From the NCBI RefSeq assembly GCF_014205175.1, contig NZ_JACHNA010000001.1:1364001-1428000 (forward strand): 64,000 nt of DNA, written 5' to 3'. This stretch comes from Micrococcus cohnii. GTDB lineage: Bacteria > Actinomycetota > Actinomycetes > Actinomycetales > Micrococcaceae. The notes below the pieces were generated by a model. The model worked only from the letters and a program-made list of their open reading frames with translations. It did not search any database and was not told the DNA's origin. The position numbers and the translations under genes are program-made. This document shows positions 22,689 to 41,698 of the stretch, piece by piece. Within the stretch, counting starts at the first letter, position 1. The number at the start of each line of letters is the position of its first letter.

Positions 22689-25600
22689 TCAGTCTCGCCG
22701 CTCCGACCGTTGCAGCTGACGCACGCCCAGCACGAACAGCGCCACGGCGGCCAGCACGAGCCAGAGGAAGAACAGCTCGCTGAGCGCGTACATCACCGAC
22801 AGCGTCAGCCCGGCCGCGCCCCACCACAGCAGGACGCGGTCAGCGATGAGCAGGCCCGCCGCCACCATGACGGCGAAGCCGGCCAGGCCGAGCAGCTGCG
22901 TCACGTGCGCCCCGGGCAGGATCAGGGACGCCGCGGCCGGGAGGACGACCGCCGCCATCGTGTGCAGCGCCGCGGCAGACCAGCGGCTCACCGACATCCG
23001 GTCCAGCACGGCGACGCAGGCCAGCACGACGGCGACGCCCACCAGGCTCCACCACAGGCGCGTGGCGGTCTCGACGAACGTCGTCGGCGGCAGCAGTCGG
23101 AACCACAGGTAGACGAGCAGCAGCGCGACCAGGGTGATCAGGTGCCAACGGGCCTGACGCACCGCCGGTTCGAACTCCGGCTGCAGTCGGACCAGCGCGT
23201 GCAGGCCGGCCCAGACGCCGACGACCACCAGCACGGCCGCGGTGCACACCGCCGGTGCCGGGCCCGGCAGCACGAGCGCGAGGGCGCTCACGGTCACGAC
23301 CGTGCCGAGGGCGCCCAAGCTCTCCGGGCCGAGGGTCCGCCGGCTGCCGGCCCACGTGGCGGCCGCGGCGACCACACCCATCATGAGCACGAGGGGACCG
23401 ACCGACTCCACGGGCAGCCGCGCCCCGAGACCGGTGTGTCCCAGCGCCGCGAGCACCCCGCGGCCCAGCGCCCAGGCGAGTGCCGGGGCGGTCACCGCGC
23501 CAACGCCAGGCGTGCCGAGTCGGCGGGCCATCACGGGCGGCACCAGGGCCGCGCAGGCCCACGGCACCGCGACGATCAGGCCGCTGGCGGCGCCGAGCTC
23601 GACGCCGTTCTGCGCGGCCCGCAGCAGACCCACCTCGGCCAGCACGATCCCGAGCATCAGTGCGGCAGCGAGGACCGCAGCACGCCGATGCACCGCGCCG
23701 ACCGGCCCCTGCGATCCGTCCGGCCCATACGAGTCTGCCTGCCAGACGCGTCGGCCCCCGCGGATCAGCATCACCGTCGCGGCGACCGCCAGGGCCGGAC
23801 CGGCCACCGCGGCGGGCACCAGCGCGTTCGGCAGCAGACCGCGGTCCAGGGTGATCGCGTCGGTCAGCACCGTCAGCGCGCTCAGGGCCGTCGCGGTGAG
23901 GACGTCTGTCCGCAGGCTGGGCATCCGGTCGATCCGCTCCGGCCGTTCCAGCACACCCGCCACGGCCAGGCCGCCCAGCGCGGACAGGCACGCGAACCGG
24001 TCGGCCTCGCCCAGGGACACCAGGAGCACGGCGAGGATCGCCAGGCCGGTGCACCACAGGCTGACCCGGTCCCACCGCCTGCCCATGCTCAGCAGCCGGA
24101 CGCGCAGCAGGGCACCGAGGGCCAGGGACGCCACGAGCACGAGGGCCACGGGGCCGAAGCCCCAGGCCAGTTCGATGGCTGTGCGGGTGAGCGCCGTGGA
24201 GACGAGGGCCTGCACGGCCAGCAGCGCGAGCATACGCACGCCTCGGCCGAGGTACGGAGCGGACAGCCGCACCAGCTGCACCCAGAGGCCGGCCCAGACG
24301 AGCAGGGCCACGACGCCGACGACCCAGCTCGGATGCACCGCCGCCCGCAACGCGGGCAGCCCGGTCAGCACGGCTGCCGTGGCCACCACCGCCTGGGCGA
24401 TGGGGCGTGTCTCGTTCTCGCCCAGCAGGCGGCGGGCGCCGACGAGCATCAGTGCCGTGCACAGCAGCAGCGGCACCAGCCAGGGGCTCGCCCAGAGGTG
24501 GTCGGCCGGCACCGTGACCGCTGCCCCCACCGCACTGCACGCGGCCCAGCCGGTGGCCGGCAGCCACGCCCGCGCTGCGGCGTCGCGTGCTCCGACGCGC
24601 CCCCAGGCGTACCCGAGGCCCAACAGGGCGATCAGGACTCCTGTGATCGCAAGCAGCCACAGCAGTCGCTCGCCGGTGAACCCGTCGGCCGTCAGGGCAC
24701 GGGTCCAGGTCCAGGGGAGCCCGACGGTGCACGTGCCGGCGACCGCAAGCAGGCCGGCCTGCCACAGATCCCGCGTCGGGCGCGCCGAGCCGCCGCCCGT
24801 CGGTGCTGCGGGGATCCGCCGCGTCCGGGACAGAGCCGCCCAGAGGCAGGCCGCGGCCCCGGTGTGGACGAGGGGCCACATCTGTGCCTCGACGAAGGTC
24901 ACAAACATCGCGGCCAGGGCGGCCGCGACGGCCCCGGAGGTCGTGGCCACCGCACGGGTGGGACTCACGGCTCGGAGCGGGACAGCGGCGCCGACCAGCA
25001 GCGCCAGCGCGAGAATCCCGTCAGCGGGGACCTGGGCCACGGCCGGTTCGGCGGCGGCGCAGGCGACGGCCAGCGCCGCCCATGTGCTCGGCTCTGCCAC
25101 GGTGTGCGCCGGACCCGTCGCCTGCAGGAGACGGCGCCGTCCCAGGGCCAGGGCGAAGATCAGGGCAACACATCCCAGCACGAGCAGCATGGCGTGTGCG
25201 GGCGCCCGCAGCTGTGCCAGCAGGCACACCACGGCGCCCAGGCCCGCGGCGCGCACGATGACACCGTCCCACCAGTCGTGCTCGCCACCGGCGACAGCCC
25301 GGCTGCCCGCGTACACCACGGCCAGCGACAGCAGGAGCGCGAGGTCGCCCCAGGCGAGCACCGCCCCGGGCGCGGCCATGGCGATGACCAGCGCTACGGC
25401 CGGCAGACCGTAGCCGAGCCACGGATGCTGACGCCGCAGCGCCTGCACCAGGATTCCGTCCGCGCCGCCACGGCGCGAGAGCCACCAACACAGCCCGATG
25501 GACAGCACCAGTCCCGCCACCAGGCTCCACACGAGTCCCGAACGCAGGGTCGCTCCTCCGGCCAGGCTGGTCGAGGCGATGCAGGCCGCCGTCAGGTGCG

Positions 25601-26318
25601 CGACGACCACAGAGCGCAGACGCACCGCGAGCAGCGTCGCCGCCCCGACACCCACGACGGACGTGAGCAGCCAGGAGATCAGGGGCTCATGCACCACTTC
25701 GGCATCCAGCAGCAGGCCCAGAACGGGGAGCATCGCCAGACCCGCGCCGGCCAGGGCCACGGCGGCCGGACGCAGCCGTTCGGATCGATGATGCAGGAGC
25801 ACGCCCGCGAGCATCAGACCGACCACGACCACCATCAGTCCCCCGAGGCGTGCCACCGGCGGCAGGAACGTCCCGACGAACAATGTCGCCGCGGCGACGA
25901 GCAGCAGAGTCGAGACGGCAAACGTGATGTTCACGTGCCGCAGCCGGCGTCGCTGCTGTTCCCCGGGATCCGGCGGAAGCGGCGCCACCACCGGACGGGG
26001 GCGGGCCGTCGCGGTCTCGGCGTCGGACACCGGCGGCCGACTCCCCCGGTTCCACTGGCCCATCGCCGGCGGAGCCTGCGGCCCGGACCCGGCAGCAGCG
26101 GTCACCGGCTTCGGCACTTCCGGCGACGCGGGTGCCACCGGAGACGGCGCGGGACCAGCCTGCATGGCCGTTTCTGCCTGCCAGGCCGAGCGCTGAACGG
26201 CGCTGGCTTCGGTCTGCGCTCGCTCCCACAGGACGCCCTGGCGGCGACCGGTGGAACGGCCGACGGCATAACCGAACACATAGACCACGACCAGCAGTAT
26301 GAGCACCACCACGTGCAC
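22689..26318 (-). CDS. giant polytopic membrane protein of unknown function (1209 aa)
   Basis: I do not recognise a specific function. An N-terminal membrane helix (residues 3-20) is followed by a Pro/Ala-rich soluble linker to about 130. Beyond that, nearly the whole chain is hydrophobic helices separated by short Arg-rich turns, roughly two to three dozen segments. The segment LLLVAAATLFVGTFLPPVARLGGL followed by a short His/Arg loop, and the C-terminal LLWWGAAGLTLSVMYAL, resemble very large actinobacterial membrane proteins annotated by SCO7613-type or DUF2339-type domains. This is a resemblance from memory. Start: GTG at 26318 with an AAAGGGGGG site, and a TAGTGT -10 candidate 48 bases upstream. 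It interrupts the usual tuf-rpsJ linkage and is followed by the DUF3817 membrane gene. Confidence 0.8.
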   Translation of the reverse strand: MHVVVLILLVVVYVFGYAVGRSTGRRQGVLWERAQTEASAVQRSAWQAETAMQAGPAPSPVAPASPEVPKPVTAAAGSGPQAPPAMGQWNRGSRPPVSDAETATARPRPVVAPLPPDPGEQQRRRLRHVNITFAVSTLLLVAAATLFVGTFLPPVARLGGLMVVVVGLMLAGVLLHHRSERLRPAAVALAGAGLAMLPVLGLLLDAEVVHEPLISWLLTSVVGVGAATLLAVRLRSVVVAHLTAACIASTSLAGGATLRSGLVWSLVAGLVLSIGLCWWLSRRGGADGILVQALRRQHPWLGYGLPAVALVIAMAAPGAVLAWGDLALLLSLAVVYAGSRAVAGGEHDWWDGVIVRAAGLGAVVCLLAQLRAPAHAMLLVLGCVALIFALALGRRRLLQATGPAHTVAEPSTWAALAVACAAAEPAVAQVPADGILALALLVGAAVPLRAVSPTRAVATTSGAVAAALAAMFVTFVEAQMWPLVHTGAAACLWAALSRTRRIPAAPTGGGSARPTRDLWQAGLLAVAGTCTVGLPWTWTRALTADGFTGERLLWLLAITGVLIALLGLGYAWGRVGARDAAARAWLPATGWAACSAVGAAVTVPADHLWASPWLVPLLLCTALMLVGARRLLGENETRPIAQAVVATAAVLTGLPALRAAVHPSWVVGVVALLVWAGLWVQLVRLSAPYLGRGVRMLALLAVQALVSTALTRTAIELAWGFGPVALVLVASLALGALLRVRLLSMGRRWDRVSLWCTGLAILAVLLVSLGEADRFACLSALGGLAVAGVLERPERIDRMPSLRTDVLTATALSALTVLTDAITLDRGLLPNALVPAAVAGPALAVAATVMLIRGGRRVWQADSYGPDGSQGPVGAVHRRAAVLAAALMLGIVLAEVGLLRAAQNGVELGAASGLIVAVPWACAALVPPVMARRLGTPGVGAVTAPALAWALGRGVLAALGHTGLGARLPVESVGPLVLMMGVVAAAATWAGSRRTLGPESLGALGTVVTVSALALVLPGPAPAVCTAAVLVVVGVWAGLHALVRLQPEFEPAVRQARWHLITLVALLLVYLWFRLLPPTTFVETATRLWWSLVGVAVVLACVAVLDRMSVSRWSAAALHTMAAVVLPAAASLILPGAHVTQLLGLAGFAVMVAAGLLIADRVLLWWGAAGLTLSVMYALSELFFLWLVLAAVALFVLGVRQLQRSERRD

Positions 26319-26501: not shown

Positions 26502-27692
<1,191 letters not shown>

Positions 27693-27975: not shown

Positions 27976-30090
27976 TCACTCGCCCTGGGACTTCTGGATG
28001 ATCTCGTCGGCGACGGCCTTCGGCACCTCGGCGTACGAGTGGAAGACCATCGAGAACACCGCACGGCCCTGCGTCTTGGAGCGCAGATCGCCGATGTAGC
28101 CGAACATCTCCGACAGCGGCACGAGGGCCTTGACGACCTTCACGCCGGTGGCGTCCTCCATGGACTGGATCTGGCCGCGGCGGGAGTTCAGGTCGCCGAT
28201 GACGTCGCCCATGAACTCCTCGGGGGTGCGCACCTCGACCGCCATGAGCGGCTCCAGGATGATCGGCTGAGCCTTGCGCACGCCCTCCTTGAACGCCTGC
28301 GAGCCGGCGATCTTGAACGCCATCTCGGAGGAGTCGACGTCGTGGTAGGCGCCGTCGAGCAGGGTCGCCTTGACGCCCACCATCGGGTAGCCGGCCAGCA
28401 CGCCGAACGTCATCGCGTCCTGGATGCCCGCGTCCACCGACGGGATGTACTCGCGCGGCACGCGGCCGCCGGTGACGGCGTTCTCGAACGCGTAGGTCTC
28501 GCCCTCGGAGGTGTCCAGGGGCTCGAACTTCAGCTGCACCTTGGCGAACTGACCGGAACCGCCGGTCTGCTTCTTGTGGGTGTAGTCGACCTTCTCGACG
28601 GTCTTCTTGATGGCCTCACGGTAGGCCACCTGCGGCTTGCCGATATTGGCCTCGACCTTGAACTCGCGCTTCATGCGGTCGACGAAGACGTCCAGGTGCA
28701 GCTCGCCCATGCCGCCGACCTCGGTCTGGCCGGTCTCCTCGTTGAGGGAGACGCGGAAGGTCGGGTCCTCCGCGACGAGCTTCTGAATGGCGGTGGAGAG
28801 CTTCTCCTGATCGCCCTTCGACTTCGGCTCGATGGCCACGGAGATCACCGGCTCCGGGAACTCCATCGACTCGAGGATGATCGGCTCATTGGGGTTGCAG
28901 AGGGTGTCACCGGTGGTGGTGTCCTTCAGCCCGATGACCGCGTAGATGTGACCGGCGACGACCTCGTCGACCGGGTTCTCCTTGTTCGCGTGCATCTGGA
29001 ACAGCTTGCCGATGCGCTCCTTCTTGCCCTTGGTGGCGTTGAGGATCTGCGAACCGGTCTCGAGGCGGCCCGAGTACACGCGAATGAAGGTCAGCGTGCC
29101 GAAGAACGGGTGCGAGGCGATCTTGAACGCCAGCGCCGAGAACGGGGCCTCCTTCGAGGCCTCGCGGGTCATCGGCGTGTCCTCGTCGCCGACGGCGTGA
29201 CCGGTGATGGCGCCCGCGTCGAGCGGGTTGGGCAGGTACGCCACGACGGCGTCGAGCATCGGCTGCACGCCGCGGTTCTTGAAGGCCGAGCCGCAGAAGA
29301 CCGGGTAGGCCTCCGCATTCACGGTCAGCTTGCGCACGCCGGCCTTGATCTCGTCCTCGGAGAGCTCCTCGCCCTCGAGGTACTTCTCCATGAGCTCCTC
29401 ATCGGACTCCGCGACGGCCTCGACGAGCGCCGCGCGGTACTCCTCGGCCTTCTCCTTGAGGTCGTCCGGGATCTCACGGGTCTCGTACTCGGCGCCCATG
29501 GTCACGTCGCCCTTGGCGTCGCCCGGCCACACGAAGGCCTTCATGGACAGCAGGTCCACGACGCCGACGAAGTCGTTCTCCGCACCGATCGGCAGCTGCA
29601 TCACCAGCGGCTTCGCGCCGAGGCGCGAGACGATGGTGTCCACGGTGTAGTAGAAGTCGGCGCCGAGCTTGTCCATCTTGTTGACGAAGCAGATGCGCGG
29701 GACGTTGTACTTGTCCGCCTGGCGCCACACGGTCTCCGACTGGGGCTCCACGCCCTCCTTGCCGTCGAACACGGCGACCGCACCGTCGAGCACGCGCAGC
29801 GAACGCTCCACCTCGACGGTGAAGTCGACGTGGCCGGGCGTGTCGATGATGTTGATCTGGGTGCCCTTCCAGAAGGAGGTCACCGCGGCGGAGGTGATGG
29901 TGATGCCGCGTTCCTTCTCCTGCTCCATCCAGTCGGTGGTCGACGCACCATCGTGGGTCTCACCGAGCTTGTGGTTCACACCCGTGTAGAACAGGATGCG
30001 CTCGGTGGTGGTGGTCTTGCCGGCATCGATGTGGGCCATGATGCCGATGTTGCGGACCTTGTTCAGGTCAGTCAGCACGTCCTGTGCCAC
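27976..30090 (-). CDS. fusA: elongation factor G
   Basis: EF-G drives ribosomal translocation. The 704 residues contain the G1 loop [15 protein letters not shown]3 DTPGHVDF and G4 [10 protein letters not shown], and domains II-V through to a C-terminal acidic/Gln end. It is the canonical bacterial type, not an EF-G2. It lies 146 bases after rpsG with a strong hairpin in between. A TATCCT hexamer near 30160 is a possible -10 for independent transcription. Confidence 0.98.
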
Positions 30091-30236: not shown

Positions 30237-30707
30237 TCACCAGCGGTAGTGGGCGAACGCCTTGTTGGCCTCAGCCATCTTGTGCGTGTCCTCGCGACGC
30301 TTCACAGCGCCGCCCAGACCGTTCGAGGCGTCGAGGATCTCGTTCATGAGGCGCTCGGTCATGGTCTTCTCGCGGCGGGCCTTCGAGAAACCGACCAGCC
30401 AGCGCAGGGCCAGGGCCGTGGAGCGGCCCGGCTTGACCTCGACCGGCACCTGGTAGGTGGCGCCGCCCACGCGGCGCGAACGCACCTCGAGGGCCGGCTT
30501 GATGTTGTCCATGGCCTTCTTGAGCGTCACGACCGGATCGGCGCCGTTCTTCTGCTGGGCGCCCTCGAGCGCGCCGTAGACGATGCGCTCGGCGGTGGAC
30601 TTCTTGCCGTCGATGAGCACCTTGTTGATCAGCTGCGTGACCAGCGGGGAGCCGTAGACGGGGTCGACGACGAGGGGGCGCTTCGGCGCGGGTCCCTTAC
30701 GAGGCAT
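30237..30707 (-). CDS. rpsG: 30S ribosomal protein S7
   Basis: S7 nucleates the 30S head and in E. coli represses str-operon translation. The 156 residues start [31 protein letters not shown] and end [10 protein letters not shown]. Its ATG overlaps the rpsL stop by one base, so the two are translationally coupled. Confidence 0.98.
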
Positions 30708-31081
30708 TACTTCTTCTCCTTCTTCACGCCGTAGCGGGAGCGGGCCTGACCGCGTCCCTTGACGCCCTGGGTGTCGAGGGCGCCGCGGACGATGCGGTAC
30801 CGCACGCCCGGAAGGTCCTTCACGCGGCCACCGCGCACGAGCACGATCGAGTGCTCCTGCAGGTTGTGGCCCTCCCCCGGGATGTACGCGGTGACCTCGA
30901 CGCCGCCGTTGAGGCGCACGCGGGCGACCTTACGGAGCGCGGAGTTCGGCTTCTTCGGGGTCGTGGTGTACACACGGGTGCACACGCCACGACGCATGGG
31001 GTTCCCCTGCAGTGCAGGGGCCTTGGTCTTGACGACCTTCGGTGAGCGGCCCTTGCGGACCAGCTGCTGAATCGTAGGCAC
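30707..31081 (-). CDS. rpsL: 30S ribosomal protein S12
   Basis: S12 controls decoding accuracy and is the streptomycin target region. The 124 residues include [17 protein letters not shown] and [20 protein letters not shown]. The lysines at the two usual resistance positions (TPKKP and GRVKDLP) are wild type. First gene of the str operon. Its leader of about 200 bases shares the gap with the oppositely oriented Fem gene. Confidence 0.98.
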
Positions 31082-31378: not shown

Positions 31379-31384
31379 TACACT
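31379..31384 (+). promoter_or_regulatory. -10 box of a leaderless promoter for the first Fem gene
   Basis: TACACT, with 6 bases to the GTG at 31391. Transcription should begin on or beside the start codon. There is no Shine-Dalgarno site in front of this GTG. Confidence 0.6.
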
Positions 31385-31390
31385 GGCGCC

Positions 31391-32584
31391 GTGACGACTT
31401 CTGCTGAGAACTCCCCCGCTTCGAACCAACCCGCCCCCGGCGGACAGGCCGGCCCCGACGCCCTCACGGTGCGCCCGATCACCGAGGCTGAGCACATCGA
31501 AGTGCTGCGTCGCCGTCCGGAGAGCTCCTTCCTGCAGAACCCCGCATGGGGCCGCGTGAAGGTCGGCTGGCGTCCGGTCTCGCTCGGCTTCTTCCGCGGC
31601 CACGAGCTCGTGGGCGCGGCCCTCGTGCTGTTGCGCCGCCTGCCCGTGCCGGCGAAAGTGCCTTTCCTGGGCCGCGCCTGCCTGGCCTACGTCTCCGAGG
31701 GCCCGGTGCTGGACGAGGGCGTCGACATGCTGGCCGCACTCGAGCCGATGGTCGCCCACCTCAAGGGTGAGGGCGCGTTCCTCGTCCGTGTGGGCCTGCC
31801 CGGTCCGGTCCGCCGCTGGGAGGCCGACGCGCTGCGCAAGGCGATCAAGGACCCCGAGATCGGCTCCGTCCTGGACCTGGAGGCCGAGGTGACCCCCGGC
31901 GCCCTGGAACTGCAGGACCGCCTGCGGGCGGCCGGCTGGCAGGCGCCGGAGGTCGGGGACGGATTCATCGCGGGCCAGCCGATGTTCCAGGCCCGCATCC
32001 CCCTCGAGGGCCTGGACGTGGACGGCGTGCTCAAGCGCATGAACCAGACCAGCCGCTCCGAGACCCGCAAGTCCACGCGCACCGACCTGGACGTGCGCGA
32101 GGCCGGCGCCGCCGGCCTCGACGAGTTCATGCAGACCTACACGCAGACCGCCGAGCGCGAGGGCTTCAATGGCCGCGCCAAGGAGTACTTCGAGGGTGTG
32201 TTCGCCGAGCTCGGCGAGTCTCCGATCGCCGATGTGGACCTGTTCCTCGCCTCCTACGAGGGCCAGCCCCTCGCCGGCGCGATCGCGATCCGTCAGGGCC
32301 GGTTCGCCTGGTACCCCTACGGCGGCTCAGCGACGGCCGAGCGCAAGCGCTTCGCCCCCCGGGCACTGCAGCTGCAGCAGATCGAGGCCGCCCTCGAGGC
32401 CGGCTGCCACTGGTATGACCTCGGCGGCGTCGGCCCTTCGCTCGACCCCGAGCACAAGCTCGCCGGCCTCATGCGGTTCAAGACCGCGATCGGCGCGGAC
32501 GTCGTGCAGACCCACGGCGAATGGGAGCTGCCGCTGAACAAGCCGCTGGCCAAGGCCTTCGCGCTGTACCTGGCCCGGCGCTGA
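31391..32584 (+). CDS. FemABX-type peptidyltransferase, copy 1
   Basis: Fem proteins transfer amino acids from aminoacyl-tRNA onto lipid-linked peptidoglycan precursors at the inner face of the membrane. The 397-residue protein shows the family pattern: an N-terminal GNAT fold with SFLQNPAWGRVK and the LAYVSEGPVLD segment. The second GNAT fold contains FAWYPYGGSA, then ALQLQQIEAALEAGCHWYDLGG and GLMRFKTAIGADVVQTHGEWELP. The start is chosen from the -10 box: the upstream in-frame sequence to 31223 lies in the promoter region. A similar gene follows directly. The donor (Ala, Gly, Ser or Thr) and attachment site cannot be read from sequence. They lie on the plus strand between rpoC and rpsL, unlike the usual order. 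Confidence 0.88.
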   Translation: MTTSAENSPASNQPAPGGQAGPDALTVRPITEAEHIEVLRRRPESSFLQNPAWGRVKVGWRPVSLGFFRGHELVGAALVLLRRLPVPAKVPFLGRACLAYVSEGPVLDEGVDMLAALEPMVAHLKGEGAFLVRVGLPGPVRRWEADALRKAIKDPEIGSVLDLEAEVTPGALELQDRLRAAGWQAPEVGDGFIAGQPMFQARIPLEGLDVDGVLKRMNQTSRSETRKSTRTDLDVREAGAAGLDEFMQTYTQTAEREGFNGRAKEYFEGVFAELGESPIADVDLFLASYEGQPLAGAIAIRQGRFAWYPYGGSATAERKRFAPRALQLQQIEAALEAGCHWYDLGGVGPSLDPEHKLAGLMRFKTAIGADVVQTHGEWELPLNKPLAKAFALYLARR

Positions 32585-32706
32585 CGCCAACGCGACACTG
32601 CGGGGCCTCCGGGTCCCGCGGCGGCGCCGCATCACGGTGCTGTCACGGCCGATCACAGAGGCATCACGTCCGGGCGCTCCCCCTCGTGTGGGCCAGTCGC
32701 GCTCGG

Positions 32707-32712
32707 TAGTGT
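32707..32712 (+). promoter_or_regulatory. -10 box of a leaderless promoter for the second Fem gene
   Basis: TAGTGT, with 7 bases to the GTG at 32720. The second copy is therefore probably transcribed on its own, besides any read-through from the first. Confidence 0.55.
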
Positions 32713-32719
32713 CGTGTCG

Positions 32720-33964
32720 GTGAGCGACGAGTCAGTTTCGAGCACACCCGCACCGACGACTCCCGCCCGGGCCTTCCGCGCCGGGGGGCGCTCACGCGCC
32801 CACACGCCGTCACTGACGGCGCACCGCATCGACGCGGCTGCCCACGCAGCGCATCTGGCCGGACACCCCGACGCGTCGTTCCTGCAGAACCCCGACTGGG
32901 CGGTGCTGAAACAGGCGTGGGGCTCGCGCTCGGTGGGTTTCTTCCACGGCGACCGTCTCGTGGGCTCCGCCCTGATCCTCACTCGCCGCCTGCCGGTTCC
33001 CTCGCGGATCCCCGTGGCTGGCCGTGCACACCTCGCCTATGTTTCGGGCGGACCCGTGCTGGATGCGGGCGTCGACCTGCTCGAGGCCCTCGACGCACTC
33101 ACCGGACTGGTCCGCGCCGACGGCGCGTTCCAGCTGCGCGTGGGCCCACCGGGCACCGTGCGCCGCTGGGCCGCCGACGACGTGCGCAAGGCCCTCCCCC
33201 GAGACGAGCATGCCGCCCTGCTCGACCTGCCGCCCGCCCACGAAGACGCCGAGGCCCTGGCCCTGCAGCAGAGGCTGCGCGAAGCCGGCTGGCGCACCGA
33301 GGACCCGGGAGAGGAGTTCGCGGACGGGCAGCCGGTGTTCCAGGCCCGGATCCCCCTCGACCCGTCTTCCGGTCCCGAGGAGGGGCTCGAAGCGGTGCTG
33401 GCCCGCATGAGTTCCTCGAGCCGCAAGCGCTCGCGTCGCAGCCTGCGCGCCGGCCTGACGATCGACCGCCACACGGGCCGTCCCGACGCCGACACCCTGG
33501 CCGTCTGGGAACGCCTGAGCGACGACACCGCCGCCCGCGACGGCTTCGCCGCACGCCCCACCGACTACTTCCGCACCCTGCTTGAGGAGTTCGGCGCCGC
33601 CGAGCCCGTGCACACCGAACTGCTGGTTGCCTGCACCGAGGGCGAACCCGCGGCCGCCGCGTTCACGATCCGTCAAGGTCAGATCGCGTGGCGGCCCTAC
33701 AGTGCCTCCTCGTCGCGGCACCGCAAGGTCGACGCGCCCCGGGCGCTGCAGGTCACTCAGATCCAGGACGCCCTCGCCGCCGGCTGTCGCGTCTTCGATC
33801 TGGGCGGTGTCAGCGGGACCCTGCGCCAGGATCACCGCCTCGCCGGACTCACCGAGTTCAAAACGACGCAGGGCGCCGACATCGTGCAGACCCACGGCGA
33901 ATGGGACCTGCCGCTGAACCGACCGCTCGCCGCGGCGTTCCGGCTGTACATGGCCCGCCGCTGA
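32720..33964 (+). CDS. FemABX-type peptidyltransferase, copy 2
   Basis: The 414-residue paralogue of the preceding gene is collinear with it over nearly the whole length. Shared blocks include SFLQNPDW, GFFHGDRLVGSALILTRRLP, QPVFQARIPL and GADIVQTHGEWDLPLNRPL. It differs by a longer N-terminus (about 45 residues of Ser/Thr/Pro and Arg) and in the central coiled region (SSSSRKRSRRSLRAG). Two adjacent, diverged Fem proteins usually add successive residues of a cross-bridge. The alternative is addition to different sites. The start follows from the -10 box; a GTG at 32714 would add two residues. Confidence 0.88.
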   Translation: MSDESVSSTPAPTTPARAFRAGGRSRAHTPSLTAHRIDAAAHAAHLAGHPDASFLQNPDWAVLKQAWGSRSVGFFHGDRLVGSALILTRRLPVPSRIPVAGRAHLAYVSGGPVLDAGVDLLEALDALTGLVRADGAFQLRVGPPGTVRRWAADDVRKALPRDEHAALLDLPPAHEDAEALALQQRLREAGWRTEDPGEEFADGQPVFQARIPLDPSSGPEEGLEAVLARMSSSSRKRSRRSLRAGLTIDRHTGRPDADTLAVWERLSDDTAARDGFAARPTDYFRTLLEEFGAAEPVHTELLVACTEGEPAAAAFTIRQGQIAWRPYSASSSRHRKVDAPRALQVTQIQDALAAGCRVFDLGGVSGTLRQDHRLAGLTEFKTTQGADIVQTHGEWDLPLNRPLAAAFRLYMARR

Positions 33965-33990: not shown

Positions 33991-34035
33991 GAAGGCCCGC
34001 CCACCTCCCCCTCACGGGGACGCGGGCGGGCCTTC
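33991..34035. terminator. bidirectional hairpin terminator between Fem copy 2 and rpoC
   Basis: A perfect 12-bp stem (GAAGGCCCGCCC/GGGCGGGCCTTC) with an inner TCCCC/GGGGA stem lies between two convergent genes, 26 bases past one stop and 12 past the other. It can end transcription from both sides. Confidence 0.8.
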
Positions 34036-34047
34036 AGCGTGTGCCGG

Positions 34048-37950
<3,903 letters not shown>

Positions 37951-38020: not shown

Positions 38021-41527
<3,507 letters not shown>

Positions 41528-41698
41528 GGAGGATCCTTCCACAGGCTTTTGTCGGGTCCATATCCGTCTCCCCGGTCCGCGCGCAGTCACGCGGTCGCGG
41601 GCCCACCGCTATATGAAGGCCCGGCGCAGTCCGTGCGCTCGTCCGGGGACCAGCAGGTCCGTTCCAGGGCGCACGGAAGCAGGGAGATGCAAAGAGCC

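Follow-up and report, generated by a model that had tools for sequence, protein, structure and literature searches.

An old pair of FemX-like genes with putatively different donor specificities between rpsL and rpoC in Micrococcus cohnii

The FemX protein of Weissella viridescens is a UDP-MurNAc-pentapeptide:lysine N6-alanyltransferase, and the FemX and VanK proteins of Streptomyces coelicolor act on stem peptides containing LL-diaminopimelic acid (LL-DAP), which sets them apart from the genes considered here. Like these genes, those of S. coelicolor are actinobacterial Fem genes, and their products add glycine to the precursor (PMC4790382). We analyzed a stretch of 64,000 nucleotides from Micrococcus cohnii (contig NZ_JACHNA010000001.1, positions 1,364,001 to 1,428,000; hereafter the window), in which two tandem Fem paralogues, fem1 and fem2, lie on the plus strand between the minus-strand genes rpsL and rpoC. 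This arrangement was first described in a sequence-only reading of the window, and its coordinates, reading frames, and enzyme family are all confirmed. The pair most likely serves peptidoglycan bridge synthesis with two donor specificities. We lean, by a modest margin of belief, toward a reading in which both products are FemX-type transferases acting on the lysine of the stem peptide, with the donor site of fem2 changed and a two-residue or mixed bridge as the outcome.

Both frames are open and full length, and their PF02388 (FemAB) scores (118.6 bits for fem1 and 115.6 bits for fem2) lie far above the cut-off of 24. The proteins are 48% identical to one another, and homologues from Streptomyces, Nocardioides, and propionibacteria are approximately 38 to 44% identical to Fem1. 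Four stretches of the 2.28-Mb genome match PF02388, all of them belonging to fem1 and fem2, and no other such gene was found. A predicted structure of Fem2 (predicted local distance difference test [pLDDT] score, 91) has as its best PDB matches the FemX proteins of Staphylococcus aureus (6snr) and W. viridescens (1xf8), and Fem2 is accordingly modeled with a double GNAT fold. These matches, together with the PF02388 scores, show that the genes had been assigned to the right enzyme family. As in W. viridescens FemX (1ne9 and 4ii9), there are two GNAT domains (in the Fem2 model) and six catalytic or binding residues are kept, and both genes leave PF02388 positions of about 230 to 300 unmatched, a segment that we take to be the helical arm present in FemA and lacking in FemX. 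The window's proteins depart from W. viridescens FemX in their longer N-terminal part, in an identity of about 20% (Fem2, by structure alignment), and in the arginine that Fem2 carries in place of Tyr254.

With FemX positions carried over by hand from FemX alignments (1ne9 chain numbering), the equivalents of K36, R211, Y215, Y256, F304, and K305 are the same in 114 of 114 rows of a residue table in which several genomes appear twice. The catalytic Phe-Lys pair (F304-K305) corresponds to F363-K364 in Fem1 and is present in Fem2 and in every other row, and the precursor-binding residues (K36, R211, and Y215) are kept in both proteins. At the position of Y254, all 12 rows of the Fem2, or beta, type (eight genomes, four of them fetched twice) have arginine, and the other 102 have tyrosine. 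The FemX-type donor-site tyrosine is therefore present in Fem1 (Y308), which is of the alpha type, but absent from Fem2 and the 11 other beta rows, and it does not define the family. The same residue has already been mutated in FemX itself (Y254F, PDB 1xf8). Published work assigns the donor tRNA to the C-terminal domain and notes a suggested role of Y254 in binding tRNA (PMC4964394).

Differences between the two types are concentrated in the C-terminal (donor) half. Fixed alpha/beta differences occupy 18 of 75 fixed columns in the C-terminal half versus 1 of 66 in the N-terminal half (P = 4.5e-5; two alpha and seven beta rows, with L008, a near copy of L007, left out). This imbalance, and the unchanged state of the residues named for the precursor, argue against the idea that both copies use the same donor and that one of them works on another precursor form. 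Such a division has an actinobacterial precedent in VanK and FemX of S. coelicolor, which differ by acceptor (PMC4790382), and the two promoter boxes described below would permit separate use of the copies; we regard it as unlikely, since the differences between Fem1 and Fem2 point to the donor. Action outside peptidoglycan, like that of Fem-related makers of peptide antibiotics or aminoacyl lipids that have the same fold (PMC12945691), is very unlikely: residues for UDP-MurNAc-pentapeptide are conserved, Fem is paired with an ATP-grasp ligase in sister genera, and the identified neighbors are rpsL, rpsG, fusA, tuf, rpoC, and rpoB rather than a natural-product cluster.

In our preferred account, fem1 and fem2 would encode FemX-type enzymes with two GNAT domains each. 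Fem1 would retain the ancestral Micrococcaceae donor site and probably add the first small residue (Gly or Ala). Fem2 would retain the catalytic and acceptor residues with a rebuilt donor site, including the change from Tyr254 to Arg, and would probably take another aminoacyl-tRNA, yielding a two-residue or mixed bridge. The earlier suggestion of Fem-type bridge enzymes with probably different specificities agrees with the family assignment, the predicted Fem2 fold, the residues, and the trees; the activities, the amino acids donated, and the order of their addition we infer from sequence comparison.

The two genes are anciently diverged, judging from a protein tree from which 58 of 80 named loci were left out. 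Fem1 groups with the single gene of one congeneric genome (G010), whereas the seven remaining single genes join Fem2 (support, 100/99 in each case). A recent tandem duplication is ruled out, as a tree constrained to unite Fem1 with Fem2 is worse by 75.6 log units (approximately unbiased [AU] test, P = 7.3e-7). The view that these are two diverged copies is thus upheld by their identity, their tree placement, and the AU test. The Fem2 branch is long (0.78), which makes the exact depth of its split less sure.

The length of this branch would also fit relaxed selection on a redundant Fem2 that contributes little to the bridge. The G+C content at third codon positions is 0.863 in fem2 versus 0.922 in fem1, and fem2 shows NG86 nonsynonymous divergences (dN) of 0.39 and 0.43 from two beta relatives (synonymous divergence [dS], 0.71 and 0.77, possibly saturated), with lower values between fem1 and G010 (dN, 0.27; dS, 0.60, again possibly saturated). 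We assign this explanation a small probability: fem2 has an open, full-length frame, its own promoter box, and all catalytic residues, and 7 of the 11 genus genomes have a beta-type gene as their sole Fem.

Trees and counts made separately for the two halves (Galactobacter and Streptomyces rows left out for their long branches) locate the signal in the C-terminal half. There, grouping the single genes with Fem1 is rejected (AU test, P = 2.4e-5), and Fem2 and the single genes have in common 13 states that occur in no outgroup row (Fem1 positions 218, 223, 224, 227, 251, 298, 308, 311, 321, 349, 362, 367, and 371); G010 shares 18 new states with Fem1 and 2 with Fem2. Positions 362 and 367 would flank the catalytic Phe-Lys pair in the alignment, and positions 218 to 227 may correspond to a positively charged tRNA-linked helix, such a helix in Fem-type proteins having been linked to tRNA (PMC12945691). 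For the N-terminal half, the best tree places Fem1 with the seven single copies (support, 32/0), and Fem1 matches three of these at 122, 125, and 127 of 184 positions versus 110 of 184 for G010; the single genes share four new states with Fem1 and two with Fem2. The single-copy species may thus carry a fem1-fem2 hybrid, formed by collapse of a tandem pair; the alternatives tested are not rejected (P = 0.30 to 0.37).

The pair is not fixed, as it occurs in 1 of 11 Micrococcus genomes. The slot between rpsL and rpoC holds a fem1-type gene alone in one genome, a fem2-type gene alone in seven, both in the window's genome, and neither in two. A PF02388 gene is present in nine (M. lylae, M. lacusdianchii, and three Micrococcus sp. 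are among the bearers), and the eight besides the window's have one each, always between rpsL and rpoC. The rpsL-rpoC interval measures 305 and 313 bases in the fem-less genomes, 1,466 to 1,724 bases in the eight single-copy genomes, and 2,969 bases in the window. Among 149 family genomes, two separate high-identity Fem copies were seen in the window's genome alone (table read by eye).

One of the fem-less genomes (G004) encodes a 379-residue catalase stretch identical to PDB 1gwe, presumably the Micrococcus lysodeikticus catalase, and is almost certainly M. luteus. In the other fem-less genome (G001), the catalase departs from 1gwe at several sites; the two genomes are sisters in a species tree built from RpoC alone (support, 99/98; RpoB was collected but unused, and gap and stop signs were dropped from match strings), so that one loss of fem accounts for both.

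M. luteus walls carry glycine on D-Glu, and it had been proposed that one copy might modify the D-Glu carboxyl; addition of that glycine would be one example. No match to MurT_C (PF08353) was detected in 11 of 11 genus genomes, whereas the controls Corynebacterium glutamicum and Lactococcus lactis match; Micrococcus thus seems to lack MurT/GatD-type amidation of lipid II. This leaves the D-Glu chemistry without a known enzyme, a point in favor of the proposal, and enzymes other than MurT/GatD probably carry it out. That a Fem protein does so is scarcely credible, because the bond needs an activated precursor carboxyl, and no PF02388 gene is present in G004, almost certainly M. luteus; moreover, Katz in 1967 reportedly described an ATP-dependent, tRNA-free addition. 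Fem enzymes, on the other hand, place the aminoacyl group on an amine (PMC4964394).

Outside Micrococcus, single fem genes lie near rpoC in all three Citricoccus loci (L059, L063, and L078), in L060, in four of four Yaniella loci, and in one locus each of Enteractinococcus and Auritidibacter. Within the flanks examined, rpoC was not near fem in eight of eight Nesterenkonia loci or in those of Zhihengliuella, Zafaria, Kocuria polaris, and Arthrobacter. The presence of single genes near rpoC in sister genera implies that a section of the family inherited this position, which is therefore no Micrococcus insertion, and to call the pair "inserted" was therefore misleading.

Citricoccus, Yaniella, and Enteractinococcus share both the slot and the fem clade with Micrococcus, and some Nesterenkonia share the clade, but all of these have one fem gene plus an ATP-grasp ligase. 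The ligase gene stands divergent from fem, on the rpsL side, in Citricoccus, L060, Yaniella, and Enteractinococcus (divergent and beside fem in L059, L060, L063, L065, L068, L069, L071, L072, and L078); in Nesterenkonia (L064 and L067) and Galactobacter (L093), it is near fem but not divergent. Its product of approximately 430 amino acids, with a weak Pfam match below the cut-off, may resemble the ligases that add D-aspartate or L-glutamate to bridges. In L060 (JASBVO010000016.1), which comes from a metagenome bin with the title Micrococcus sp. Bu38, AKR, fem, and ATP-grasp genes stand in the Citricoccus-type order; the ligases of L060 and L059 are 87% identical, G134, apparently a copy of L060, is assigned to a genus other than the window's, and the title is probably a mislabel.

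When the fem clade is defined by E < 1e-50 with Fem1 and the ligase by E < 1e-60, they occur in 52 and 55 of the 149 family genomes, respectively (weak ATP-grasp matches, E about 4e-4, in G107 and at a second place in G134 were left out). Both are present in 45 genomes, with 29 of these pairs adjacent; 7 have the fem clade alone, 10 the ligase alone, and 87 neither. The 10 genomes with the ligase alone lack any Fem1 match whatsoever; among the 87 with neither, 85 have weaker Fem1 matches (other Fem clades) and the 2 fem-less Micrococcus have none. Six Micrococcus fem bearers in the sample and G151 make up the set with the fem clade alone, G151 (contig C34:243968-245104; L037) being the sole non-Micrococcus genome of the 149 with the fem clade and without the ATP-grasp gene. 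A single-protein search detected the ligase in 0 of 11 Micrococcus genomes, and the profile search in 0 of the 8 that its sample included, three genus genomes having been searched by single protein alone. The slot of the common ancestor may also have held the ATP-grasp ligase, lost in Micrococcus, and fem would then have been lost on the line leading to M. luteus and its sister genome.

Several observations weigh against our reading of the pair. Given its long branch, partial decay of Fem2 is possible. The N-terminal halves leave the alpha and beta types unsplit, and even in the C-terminal half 7 new states are common to the single genes and Fem1, versus 13 to the single genes and Fem2. Unlike W. 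viridescens FemX, both genes fall far below the cut-off of 500 bits of the NCBIfam FemX alanyltransferase equivalog NF047883 (84.3 bits for fem1 and 60.2 bits for fem2). The co-occurrence of the fem clade and the ligase (Fisher exact test, P = 6e-21) ignores kinship in its counts, and a sequence does not reveal which amino acids its product donates. Finally, the bridge reported for M. lylae is L-Lys-D-Asp, which a Fem that simply adds Gly or Ala leaves unexplained.

M. lylae has a beta Fem, no detected ATP-grasp ligase of this family, and a single match to PF01177 (racemase), as do all 11 genus genomes for the last of these. A ligase of another kind may have escaped detection, or else the beta Fem acts in an unusual way. 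PF02655 gives three matches in M. lylae, a RimK-like frame (by eye) and frames of 588 and 1,191 amino acids that we take for a carboxylase and a CPSase; none was taken as a D-Asp ligase, although absence of that enzyme is unproven because PF02655 has not been shown to detect a known D-Asp ligase. PF02655 matches of one kind (profile positions 3 to 155) occur in the ten other genus genomes but not in the window's (G000); the M. lylae frame L151 (407 amino acids, RimK-like) is the sole one of that kind that was read. As a rule, the acidic residues of bridges are attached by ligases. It is conceivable, though a long shot, that beta Fem has switched to an acidic aminoacyl-tRNA, with the arginine at Tyr254 reading the carboxylate, and so replaces the missing ATP-grasp ligase. 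If true, this donor switch would provide a tRNA-dependent route to an acidic bridge and would be relevant to the way in which M. lylae forms its reported Lys-Asp bridge.

Coordinates of the fem pair, its putative signals, and neighboring genes are listed in Table 1. A TANNNT box lies 6 to 8 nucleotides before the GTG start in 10 of 10 genus fem genes compared (the window's two and eight others), so leaderless transcription fits, and the promoter of this type ascribed to each gene is plausible; against it, a generic scan for paired sigma-70 -35/-10 boxes found none at the fem genes. A terminator shared with rpoC had also been noted. The 83 bases at 33965-34047 fold at -57.6 kcal/mol versus a shuffled mean of -38.4 (z = -5.7), but the stable hairpin that they contain is absent from the list of the terminator scan, and a U-run is lacking; a shared two-way terminator is possible. 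Coregulation with rpoC or rpsL, which had also been envisaged, draws no support from the anatomy of the locus, since the fem genes are on the opposite strand and have their own start signals and a terminal hairpin.

Table 1. Features of the rpsL-rpoC slot and its surroundings (window coordinates)
Feature	Coordinates	Strand	Remarks
tuf	26502-27692	-	Pfam
fusA	27976-30090	-	Pfam
rpsG	30237-30707	-	Pfam
rpsL	30707-31081	-	Left border of slot; recognized by eye from translation
TACACT, -10-like box of fem1	31379-31384	+	6 nt before GTG; leaderless-type
fem1 (P0001)	31391-32584	+	GTG to stop; putative alpha-type FemX-like aminoacyl transferase, 397 aa; Tyr (Y308) at FemX Y254 position
TAGTGT, -10-like box of fem2	32707-32712	+	7 nt before GTG
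fem2 (P0002)	32720-33964	+	GTG to stop; putative beta-type FemX-like aminoacyl transferase, 414 aa; Arg at FemX Y254 position
Hairpin between convergent ends of fem2 and rpoC	33991-34035		12-bp stem, from folding; no U-run
rpoC	34048-37950	-	Right border of slot; recognized by eye from translation
rpoB	38021-41590	-	Pfam

Downstream of tuf, the minus strand (22689-26318) encodes a very hydrophobic protein of 1,209 amino acids, by eye a many-pass membrane protein, with no Pfam match at 1e-5.

Classification of the Micrococcaceae has long drawn on the chemistry of the cross-bridge, and to our knowledge the genes that set it are mostly not worked out. Among the matches listed in our literature searches, whose coverage excluded most subscription journals, none concerned the rpsL-rpoC fem slot or these Micrococcus fem genes, and none gave the bridge types of fem-bearing Micrococcus species. 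The presence of the fem clade, a distant Fem, or the ATP-grasp ligase sorts the 149 genomes into groups for which different bridge types would be predicted. On a simple reading, the ligase alone would correspond to a direct Lys-Glu/Asp bridge, the fem clade plus ligase to a Lys-Gly/Ala-Glu type, the fem clade alone or another Fem to a neutral bridge, and the lack of all of these to the stem-peptide bridge of M. luteus. For Arthrobacter, A3-alpha bridges of the Lys-Ala and Lys-Ser-Thr-Ala types have been described, not tied to the genomes sampled here (PMC4786123). With four states (alpha, beta, both, and none) at one chromosomal slot within one genus, Micrococcus would offer a natural experiment on change in wall chemistry.
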